Shown here in pieces: positions 1-3,138 of a stretch of 64,000 bases of DNA. The notes under the pieces were generated by a model. The model saw nothing but the letters and a program-made list of their open reading frames with translations, had not been told where the DNA came from and ran no database searches. Each line of letters opens with the position of its first letter. The stretch's first letter is position 1. The stretch is taken from assembly GCF_000009905.1 (NCBI RefSeq), contig NC_006177.1, positions 372,001 to 436,000 of the forward strand. Reading direction: 5' to 3'. The DNA comes from Symbiobacterium thermophilum IAM 14863 (GTDB taxonomy: Bacteria; Bacillota; Sulfobacillia; Symbiobacteriales; Symbiobacteriaceae). Both the position numbers and the translations under genes were made by a program.

Positions 1-221
1 GGCTCCAGTATGGCGGTGAAGTGACCACACACTGGATTGAGTTGTCTGGAATTCGTTGCAGGGCCAGCCTAGCGTCACCTTCAAGGATGAGCGATCCCTG
101 CAGTTCTAGCTTTGGCGGTGGCGTGATCCTTTCGTGCTGCACGGACGCAACCTCCCTATTTGATCTTCATATTCGGAAGATGGACCGCAGCATCCTGCTA
201 CACATCGGCGAAACAAGAACG

Positions 222-460: not shown

Positions 461-544
461 CGCGGGCTTGGACCTGCAGGAGGAGGTGGTGCATAGACAT
501 TTGTCAGGCCGGGTCTGGTGTGCCGGCCAGGGGGGACTGCTATA

Positions 545-754
545 ATGAAGACAGCTGTACGCTGGGTTGTGTGCAATCACGTCCCGACTGCTCGGGGTAT
601 TGTATCATTAGATGAACTGACCGGGGCAGAGCGTCAGGCGATTGTAGATCGGATCTATCTGGCGATGGCCCGTGCCATGGCCCCAGAGGGGGTCGAGGTG
701 CGGCTGGCAAGGGGGCATCAGATCCATGGGCAGGACAAGAGGCAGGCGATCTAG
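545..754 (+). CDS. Small hypothetical protein upstream of recombinase
   Basis: Encodes 69 residues beginning MKTAVRWVVCNHVPTARGIV. It starts at an ATG about 10 nt after an AGGGGGG ribosome-binding sequence and overlaps the start of the recombinase gene by 29 nt in another frame, which suggests translational coupling. There is no transmembrane segment and no motif I can name. Small genes in this position are common in recombinase cassettes of Firmicute elements, and a role in controlling the recombinase is a guess. TATAAT at 541-546 overlaps the start codon, so the ATG may partly reflect a promoter. Confidence 0.5.
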   Translation: MKTAVRWVVCNHVPTARGIVSLDELTGAERQAIVDRIYLAMARAMAPEGVEVRLARGHQIHGQDKRQAI

Positions 755-2270
755 CCCGTCCGGGGAACTTCGGCGGGCCGCCGCATACATTAGGGTGTCA
801 ACGGGCATGCAGGCGGAGGAGGGCGAAAGCCTTCCAGCCCAGCAGGCCCGTCTTCACGCGTGGGCCAAAGAGAACGGTTATGTGATCGTGCGGGAGTACG
901 TCGATGCTGGAGAGTCGGCCCGCACAGCGGATCGCCCGCAGTTTGTGCGGATGCTCCAGGACGCCAAGGCGCAGCCCCGTCCGTTTGACAGTGTTTTGGT
1001 GTGGAAGTGGGACCGCTTCGCACGCAACATGGAAGACGCTTCCATGTATAAGGCCCTGTTCCGCCGGAGGCTGGGTGTGGAGTTGGTCAGCATCACCCAA
1101 CCCACGCCGGAAGGGGCTGTGGGCCAGCTGTTGGAACGGATGCTTGACCTGATCGCAGAATTCCAAAGCGCCTTGACCGCCGAGAATGTGTACAGCACCA
1201 TGGCCTACCTGGCGGAGCAGGGCCGCTGGCTTGGCAAGCGGCCGTTCGGGTACGACCTTCGGGATGGCCGCCTGGTGATCAAGCCTGATGAGGCGGAGGC
1301 TGTGGCGTGGGCGTTCAGGATGGTGGCTCGGCGGGAGCGATCTGTCTACGCCATAGCCGAGGGCTTTGGCACAGGCAACCCCTTTCCGGCCACGTTGGCT
1401 CGGGGGTACAAGTGGTCCCCAACCGCCGTCAGAAAGATGCTCCAGAACGAAGTGTACATCGGCCGGGCTACCTGGAACCGTCGCTATACAGATATTGACC
1501 ACGTGGATGGTAAGTCCACGAAGATTCGTGGGTACCGTGACCCATCAGATTGGATCACTGTCGAGAACGCCCACCCTGCCATTGTTGATGAAGAGACGTT
1601 CGAGGCCGTCCAACGGGTTCTGGAGGAGTACAGCAGCCGCTACCCCAAGTCAAAGCGTGGTGAGTACCTGTTCTGGGGCATGGTACGGTGCGCCAGGTGC
1701 GGGCACCACCTGACCTGGCACGAGACGAAAAAGTCACCCGCTAGGCTTGTCTGCTCAGAATACTTCCGGCCGCGGCACATGGCCTGCCGTCCGATGGTCT
1801 ACATTCGCCCCAAGGACTTGGAGGAGGCCGTCATAGGGGCGATTCAGGAGATCATCGCCGGGGCCGAGCAGACCCCGCTTACCTTTGCGATCCCGAAGCA
1901 GGCCAGGGCGGCCTCGCCAGAGGCACTGCTCGCCGCTAACGCCGCAAAGGTCCAGCGCCTCCTGGAAGCATACGAGGCCGGAGCCATCACCCTGGATGAC
2001 CTCAAGACCCGGCGCACCATACTGGAGCAGGAGGCGGAGCGGCTGCGGCAAGCGGCGGCCAGCAAGGACAGCGGCCCGGATTACGAGGCGCAGGTTGCGG
2101 CCCTCCGGGAGCGGCTGACGGACGTGCTGGCCATCCTCCAGGACGAGGAGGCTCCTGTAGCCGCCAAGAACCAGGCGCTCGGTGCCGTCATCCGGGAAAT
2201 CGTGATAGACCGGGAGGCCCAGCGCATCGACATCCACTGGCGGCCGATAGAGGAGGATTTACAACAGTAA
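726..2270 (+). CDS. Large serine recombinase (integrase/excisionase)
   Basis: Encodes 514 residues of the large serine recombinase family. The N-terminal resolvase domain (about residues 17-165) has the catalytic serine in YIRVST (Ser25) and the WDRFARN motif. A recombinase domain follows, then a zinc-ribbon near residues 320-365 (RCARCG plus later cysteines) and a C-terminal coiled coil rich in Ala, Arg and Glu. ATG at 726 is chosen because AAGGGGG lies about 9 nt upstream and the family's YIRVS motif then sits at the usual distance. It is transcribed toward the junction with ylbJ and stops a few bases from it, as integrase genes often do. Base composition is clearly less G+C-rich than the flanking chromosome. 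It probably inserts and may excise the element to its left. Confidence 0.93.
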   Translation: MGRTRGRRSSPSGELRRAAAYIRVSTGMQAEEGESLPAQQARLHAWAKENGYVIVREYVDAGESARTADRPQFVRMLQDAKAQPRPFDSVLVWKWDRFARNMEDASMYKALFRRRLGVELVSITQPTPEGAVGQLLERMLDLIAEFQSALTAENVYSTMAYLAEQGRWLGKRPFGYDLRDGRLVIKPDEAEAVAWAFRMVARRERSVYAIAEGFGTGNPFPATLARGYKWSPTAVRKMLQNEVYIGRATWNRRYTDIDHVDGKSTKIRGYRDPSDWITVENAHPAIVDEETFEAVQRVLEEYSSRYPKSKRGEYLFWGMVRCARCGHHLTWHETKKSPARLVCSEYFRPRHMACRPMVYIRPKDLEEAVIGAIQEIIAGAEQTPLTFAIPKQARAASPEALLAANAAKVQRLLEAYEAGAITLDDLKTRRTILEQEAERLRQAAASKDSGPDYEAQVAALRERLTDVLAILQDEEAPVAAKNQALGAVIREIVIDREAQRIDIHWRPIEEDLQQ

Positions 2271-2271
2271 T

Positions 2272-3138
2272 AGAGGGGATCCCCTGTTTATCTGGGGGGC
2301 TGTGGCGGTCGGCATGTTCGGCATGCCGGCCCTGGGCCACACCATGGCCCTGGCCCACTACATCGCCGCCCTCCTCGTGGGGCTCACCTTCCGGTTTTAC
2401 GGGATCCACGAGCACGAGCGGACGGCCGAGCCGCCGCGGGAGGGGAACATGCTCAGCCGGGCCCTGGCCGCGCTGATCAAGGCCCGGCAGGAGGACGGCC
2501 GGCCGCTGGGCCAGATGCTGGGGGACGCAATCAAGGATTCGATGAGGACCATGGCCCTGATCTGCGGGTACATCATGATGTTCGCCGTGCTGGCCCGGAT
2601 GATCGACGTCACCGGCCTGTTCCCCTACGTTTCCGCGCCCTTCCGGTGGCTGTTCGCCGTGCTTCACATTGACCCGGCCCTGGTGCGGGCGGCGGTCACG
2701 GGGCTGCTGGAGATCGACCTGGGGACGCTCGCGGCCTCCCGGGCCACGGATGCGCCGCTGGCGCAGCAGGTCGCCATCGCCGGGGCGATCATCGCCTGGA
2801 GCGGACTCTCGGTGCACGGCCAGGTGGCCAGCGTGCTCAGCGGCACCGACATCCGGATGGGTCCCTACGTGGCGGCGCGGCTTCTGCACGCGGTGCTGGC
2901 CTTCATCTGGACCCTGGTGCTGCTGCCCATGGCGGGGCCGCTGTCCCTGGGCGCCGCCCGGGTGCTGCCGACCCTCGGGGGGCTCCCTGCCGCACTGTGG
3001 CAGACGCCCTTCTGGGAGCACCTCATGCGGGGGACCCGGTGGTCGCTGGTCATCCCGCTCTGCCTGGCCCTGATCGGCGCCGGGGCTGCGCTGCTGACGG
3101 GCGGCGTCCGCTGGGTGCACTTCCACACCCGCCGCTGA
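2272..3138 (+). pseudogene. ylbJ: 3' part of ylbJ (sporulation integral membrane protein), 5' end displaced by the mobile element
   Basis: The reading frame is open across the element boundary (codons from 2272; GDPLFIWGAVAVGMFG) and continues to 3138. It encodes about 285 hydrophobic residues with several membrane segments and the gate/nucleoside-recognition-like C-terminal half of YlbJ. In Bacillus, YlbJ is a membrane protein needed during sporulation. YlbJ is usually about 400 residues, so roughly the first third is missing and presumably lies at the other end of the element. GTG at 2302 could start translation internally but lacks a good ribosome-binding site. Excision could restore the gene, as for sigK with skin; whether it does cannot be told from this window. 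Confidence 0.8.

Follow-up and report, generated by a model that had tools for sequence, protein, structure and literature searches.

The only ylbJ gene of Symbiobacterium thermophilum IAM 14863 is split into two parts by a 73,942-bp element, and these parts join in frame at a GA dinucleotide present at both borders. We consider it likely that this is a skin-like intervening element that is excised from ylbJ in the mother cell during sporulation. Excision itself, its timing and the cell type, as well as any dependence of sporulation on it in this species, are inferred. The gene concerned is the same as spoVV, and the SpoVV protein moves dipicolinic acid (DPA) across the outer forespore membrane. 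In Bacillus subtilis, this DPA transporter gene belongs to the SigE, mother-cell set and is required for resistant spores, with a null mutant showing a >10^6-fold loss (PMC5629000).

The two parts of ylbJ and the crossover site

The window that we analysed, a stretch of 64,000 nucleotides, corresponds to positions 372001-436000 of the closed 3,566,135-bp S. thermophilum chromosome (genome G000 in our survey). A whole-genome search with the spore_ylbJ profile (TIGR02871) gave two strong partial matches, both on the forward strand, one covering model positions 3-128 (genome 299979-300356) and the other positions 118-323 (genome 374266-374925). No other ylbJ copy was detected by this search in the whole genome, the sole further match having an E value of 0.14. 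The 3' part forms an open frame at window positions 2278-3138 (forward strand, codons 127-413), and the 5' part lies outside the window, 73,942 bp upstream, at genome positions 299955-300335 on the same strand. The left part reads ...AACACCGCC-GA-CCCAGTATTTCTGTTGTAA and then stops, and the right part reads ...TAATAGAGGG-GA-TCCCCTGTTTATCTGGGGG, with the stop codon of a recombinase gene before it. The shared GA is found at genome positions 300336 and 374278 (the latter being window position 2278), and the true junction is G2278-A2279. Joined there, the halves yield a 413-codon open frame with the junction peptide NTADPLFIWGAVAVGMF, identical to that of the uninterrupted ylbJ in two congeneric genomes, G001 and G002. 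As in skin-type elements, a sporulation gene is thus split into parts lying on the same strand at opposite ends of the element, and recombination at the shared core would restore its reading frame exactly.

The original prediction, made from the window alone, had proposed that the ylbJ frame stays open across the boundary and that the recombinase gene ends within a few bases of it. Both statements hold: no stop interrupts the frame, which is covered by the second profile match, and the recombinase stop codon (2268-2270, forward strand) lies 7 bp before the junction. It had also anticipated a 5' part of ylbJ to the left in the same orientation, relatives with an uninterrupted gene, and a short shared core near 2272-2290, which proved to be the dinucleotide at 2278-2279. 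What would have refuted it did not materialise, as the 5' part is present, a second intact ylbJ is absent, and the gene is uninterrupted in the congeners.

The attR site spans window positions 2256-2300 (forward strand) and consists of the element arm GATTTACAACAGTAATAGAGGG (2256-2277), the GA core (2278-2279) and the host arm TCCCCTGTTTATCTGGGGGGC. Combining it with attL (genome 300336), we rebuilt the attP predicted for the circularised element, TTTACAACAGTAATAGAGGG-GA-CCCAGTATTTCTGTTGTAAA, which is a 17/20 dyad centred exactly on the GA. The next-best dyad centre in the region scored 8/20, and shuffled arms never matched the observed score in 20,000 trials (P<=0.00005). The attP of a serine integrase is expected to look like this, with arms inverted about a central dinucleotide that attB also contains (compare PMC3783163). 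A longer shared core was rejected after checking junction 12-mers (100 kb upstream) and short end-to-end matches; the dyad centre fixes the crossover at the GA, which falls within the Asp codon of the peptide NTA-D-PLF. A search with the attP arms found no match in viral contigs.

Neither ylbJ half carries a stop or a frameshift. The dN/dS ratio of the rejoined gene against that of G002 was 0.15, compared with 0.17 for the intact pair G002-G001. This value is supportive of purifying selection on the rejoined gene without being decisive: the insertion may be recent, which could give the same ratio, and in that case the apparent selection says little.

The recombination unit and the phage origin of the element

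Only the right-hand 2.3 kb of the element falls within the window (positions 1-2277), the remainder lying upstream at genome positions 300336-372000. This part contains a gene for a large serine recombinase (726-2270, forward strand) with the Resolvase, Recombinase and Zn_ribbon_recom domains expected of a serine integrase (PF00239, PF07508 and PF13408), all above cut-off, and an intact catalytic motif YIRVST. Its start is probably the conserved ATG at 726; a GTG at 672 would give a protein of 532 aa. Since the gene ends 7 bp before the crossover, its last codons lie inside the attR arm, so that the element's own site-specific recombinase adjoins an att site, another property of skin-type elements. 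No relatives of this recombinase were found in the genome_contigs search.

A 69-aa open reading frame (545-754, forward strand) overlaps the recombinase start. The protein has a homologue (47% identity, E 2e-12) likewise encoded upstream of the recombinase in the ylbJ element of another genome of the order (G007, see below), and its AlphaFold model (pLDDT 76) shows one helix and short strands. Each of the five elements examined (G000, G007, G494, G496 and G484) has a small ORF of 54-84 aa directly before its recombinase gene. We regard the 69-aa protein as a candidate recombination directionality or accessory factor, a role that is inferred. The motif CATA is the core of SigE/SigK -10 elements. 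The copy at positions 492-495 (forward strand), ahead of the small ORF, might serve as a -10 element for a mother-cell sigma factor, on weak evidence. Four of the five ylbJ elements have CATA no farther than 55 bp before the small ORF (shuffle P 0.0005). None of the five shows a full sigE/sigK promoter pattern there, and no sigma-70-like promoter was seen before the small ORF and the recombinase gene. Because several promoter patterns were tried, CATA is only a hint of a promoter read by sporulation sigma factors.

To the left of the recombinase unit, the element carries an XcyI-type restriction-modification pair, a holin, an endolysin and tail genes. The methyltransferase gene of the pair (Pfam N6_N4_Mtase; genome 371273-372142), whose partner is the XcyI-type restriction enzyme (RE_XcyI), enters the window with its 5' end (1-142, reverse strand). 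Farther left are a ribonucleotide reductase, several IS elements, type I-C cas genes and an oligopeptide ABC transporter, and the left end encodes a phage-type nuclease (PDDEXK) and a protein resembling phage transcription regulators. Two siphophage contigs (L083 and L084) share the tail-lysis module of the element with 88-92% DNA identity, and one of these two related viral contigs encodes a recombinase 97% identical in amino acids. Contig L083 also encodes terminase, portal, minor head, adaptor, connector and tape-measure proteins. The terminase, portal, head, adaptor and connector genes of this related phage have no match in the element, in which the tape measure is reduced to its last 254 residues (372-625) and the downstream phage genes are kept. 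Since only the end of the tape measure and the genes that follow it have been retained, together with an intact recombination unit, we interpret the element as a defective siphophage. Its prophage origin, usual but not obligatory for elements of this kind, is evident from the tail, holin and endolysin genes and from the identity with the siphophage contigs, and it lacks the complete head, packaging and tail set of an active temperate phage.

Two features of the cargo deserve mention in their own right. The type I-C genes cas3, csd1/cas8c and cas7 lie in this defective prophage (genome 345655-352854, L006/L005) with a Mutator-family transposase just upstream. The slot between the lysis genes and the recombinase (genome 370261-372142; window 1-142), occupied here by the restriction-modification pair, apparently holds a different methyltransferase and a nuclease in the related phage (L065, 3518-5462), and may be a site of exchange of defence genes. 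The idea that essential cargo proves the permanence of the element was dropped, its ribonucleotide reductase being a second copy.

Recurrence of the split across the class

We surveyed 154 genomes of the class, 134 of them with ylbJ, and read the junctions. Both ylbJ halves occur at the GA in nine genomes from seven families (G000, G007, G494, G496, G505, G484, G451, G471 and G436), with dyad scores, in this order, of 17, 13, 20, 11, 17, 14, 18, 15 and 18 out of 22. Shuffling gave P <=0.0024 in all of them except G496 (P 0.013), where the attL and attB contigs carry differing 5' halves, which makes both the pairing and the dyad weak. Six further genomes (G005, G495, G500, G520, G442 and G454) have a single ylbJ half at the GA. 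A recombinase gene lies near a junction in six of the nine genomes with both halves, at 25 bp (G494) and 88 bp (G496) from the 3' half, 65 bp from the 5' half (G471) or 3 kb away (G484) in four of them; for G505, G451 and G436, the flanking sequence fetched contained none. The recombinases of the GA sites (G000, G007, G494, G496, G471 and G484) form, together with that of the phage contig, a single clade (support 98/97).

One of these genomes, that of Caldinitratiruptor microaerophilus JCM16183 (G007; PMC9933637), belongs to the same order as S. thermophilum and is closed (3,599,694 bp). Here a 25.4-kb element (genome 2687181-2712594, L040-L041) interrupts ylbJ, again at this GA. It carries a recombinase 55% identical to that of S. 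thermophilum, genes for cobalamin synthesis, a chromate transporter and a gerA-gerB-gerC operon; no phage genes were found among the ten genes searched. The cobalamin-synthesis genes include the only cbiD of that genome, and the operon encodes a germinant receptor. Metabolic and spore genes thus sit within an element presumed to be excised in the mother cell.

Other interruptions were set apart. In G528 (L117/L118), the break in ylbJ lies about 16 bp downstream of the GA, beside a large serine recombinase that is unrelated and falls outside the GA-site clade; we excluded this genome from the group, and it is apparently a case of independent use of ylbJ. Broken ylbJ genes from the phylum survey were not counted when the contig ended away from the GA (G322, G366, G134, G110, G351, G234 and G186) or when the break looked like a frameshift (G051). 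In addition, extra 5' halves of ylbJ, one or two per genome, break off at or near the same GA in G004 (L045, contig C6, 2534-3943 and 12696-13334), G500 (L129, contig C22, 1319 and 11414), G515 (L130, contig C123) and G518 (L131, contig C60). In G004, G500 and G518 they lie a few kb upstream of another 5' half, which runs on into ylbJ; it looks as though an element had supplied a new 5' half in place of the old one and the gene had thereby stayed intact. The surroundings of these extra halves yielded no large serine recombinase.

The recurrence bears on two alternative explanations. That an assembly error or a chromosomal rearrangement parted the halves without site-specific recombination found no support, and two closed genomes (one of them sequenced with PacBio) and many drafts share the exact break, in S. 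thermophilum with a dyad-symmetric attP and an adjacent recombinase; the exact in-frame core and its recurrence already refute this possibility. A plain defective prophage that disabled ylbJ, leaving a decaying split gene and a bacterium that sporulates poorly or without SpoVV, would agree with the defective state of the element and with the fact that no excision has been observed. It seems unlikely to us, given that both halves remain free of stops and frameshifts at a dN/dS of 0.15, that the recombinase, the small ORF and both att sites are intact despite the loss of the head genes, and that the same site is split, with both halves open, in the nine genomes of seven families.

Several draft assemblies contain signs of both forms of the gene. 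The ylbJ 3' half starts at a contig end exactly at the GA in G495, G500 and G045, and within 4 bases of it in G005 and G291; as no recombinase was found in G045, G291 and G005, the breaks at contig ends are only suggestive there. In G500, the contig carrying the 3' half and another with an intact junction have exactly 141 bases in common, beginning at the GA, the trace expected of a de Bruijn assembler at the meeting point of two paths; a search for the attR partner of this fork gave no contig. G496 has one contig of attB type and one of attR type whose 3' parts are identical over 124 bp. These forks fit a population holding rejoined and split ylbJ, by excision or by strain mixture, and in metagenomes the latter could account for them.

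The same forks, and the related siphophage contig with its nearly identical recombinase, would also be compatible with a phage-like excision, spontaneous or triggered by stress, in which ylbJ is rejoined only in cells that have lost the element and sporulation exerts no control. We hold this to be quite unlikely. With the head genes gone, induction brings no phage benefit, and the split recurs across families; ylbJ acts in the mother cell, which is terminal (PMC5629000) and can excise the element without loss, and the possible CATA -10 elements also point away from it.

Proposed developmental excision and known intervening elements

Under the developmental excision that we favour, a temperate siphophage would have integrated into ylbJ at the GA of the Asp codon by means of its own large serine recombinase. 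Later, its head genes would have disappeared and IS elements and cargo would have accumulated, while both att sites, the recombinase and the small upstream gene stayed in place. In the sporulating mother cell, the recombinase, with the small protein or another directionality factor, may recombine attL with attR; the 73.9-kb element would leave as a circle, and the restored 413-codon ylbJ would allow dipicolinic acid to be moved towards the forespore when transport is needed. The forespore would retain the interrupted gene, and the element would thereby be inherited. Such mother-cell excision fits the B. subtilis biology of ylbJ/spoVV (SigE, mother cell; PMC5629000) and remains unshown here, the finished S. 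thermophilum genome displaying the integrated form only. Carriers of a split ylbJ probably remove the element to complete their spores, by an excision that we infer. On a wider scale, ylbJ/spoVV might be a class-wide hotspot of developmentally programmed DNA excision, with an old lineage of GA-recognising recombinases, long kept because rejoining is needed for spores, a changing cargo (phage genes, or cobalamin and germination genes) and some lineages escaping via replacement 5' halves; we see the chances of this broader proposal as even.

The described targets of such elements include sigK, spsM, spoVFB, gerE and yabG (PMC10747680, PMC5595907). We found no report of ylbJ/spoVV as a target in open-access full text, a scope that leaves out subscription papers, the 2004 S. 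thermophilum genome paper and supplementary tables; nor did we find an earlier report of such elements in this branch. A functionally critical DPA-transporter gene is hereby added to the short list of their hosts in spore-formers. The recurrence at one dinucleotide across families offers a testable system, made up of a recombinase clade, its attB, which falls in a conserved codon, and a protein that may be the directionality factor, and annotations may call ylbJ missing or broken where it is merely split.

A close parallel is skin in sigK of B. subtilis and Clostridioides difficile, where a serine recombinase and a (defective) prophage also occupy a mother-cell sporulation gene whose frame is restored by precise excision; in C. 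difficile, a small separate gene, CD1234, encodes the recombination directionality factor (RDF) and is under SigE/SpoIIID control (PMC5025042). The ylbJ element differs in its host gene, which serves DPA transport and is not a sigma factor, in its 2-bp GA core and in its occurrence in Symbiobacterium and its class. The element vfbin of B. weihenstephanensis, as cited in PMC10747680, likewise interrupts a DPA-pathway gene, spoVFB, but this encodes the DPA synthase instead of the transporter, and the host group is another one. SP-beta, in spsM, has a phage integrase and a small RDF, and the two parts of spsM are reunited in the mother cell (PMC4191935, PMC6957869); SP-beta, unlike the ylbJ element with its missing head genes, is active as a phage. 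The element gin, in gerE of B. cereus ATCC10987, resembles that of C. microaerophilus in bringing non-phage cargo into a sporulation gene (PMC5595907), but it has three recombinases and a 9-bp core, against one found recombinase and the GA core. Finally, yin in yabG of C. botulinum V73 is also a recently described case of a new host gene (PMC10747680); it was reported as unique to one strain, whereas the ylbJ site is used across many families, and this class-wide use of a single dinucleotide is what is unusual in comparison with the known elements.
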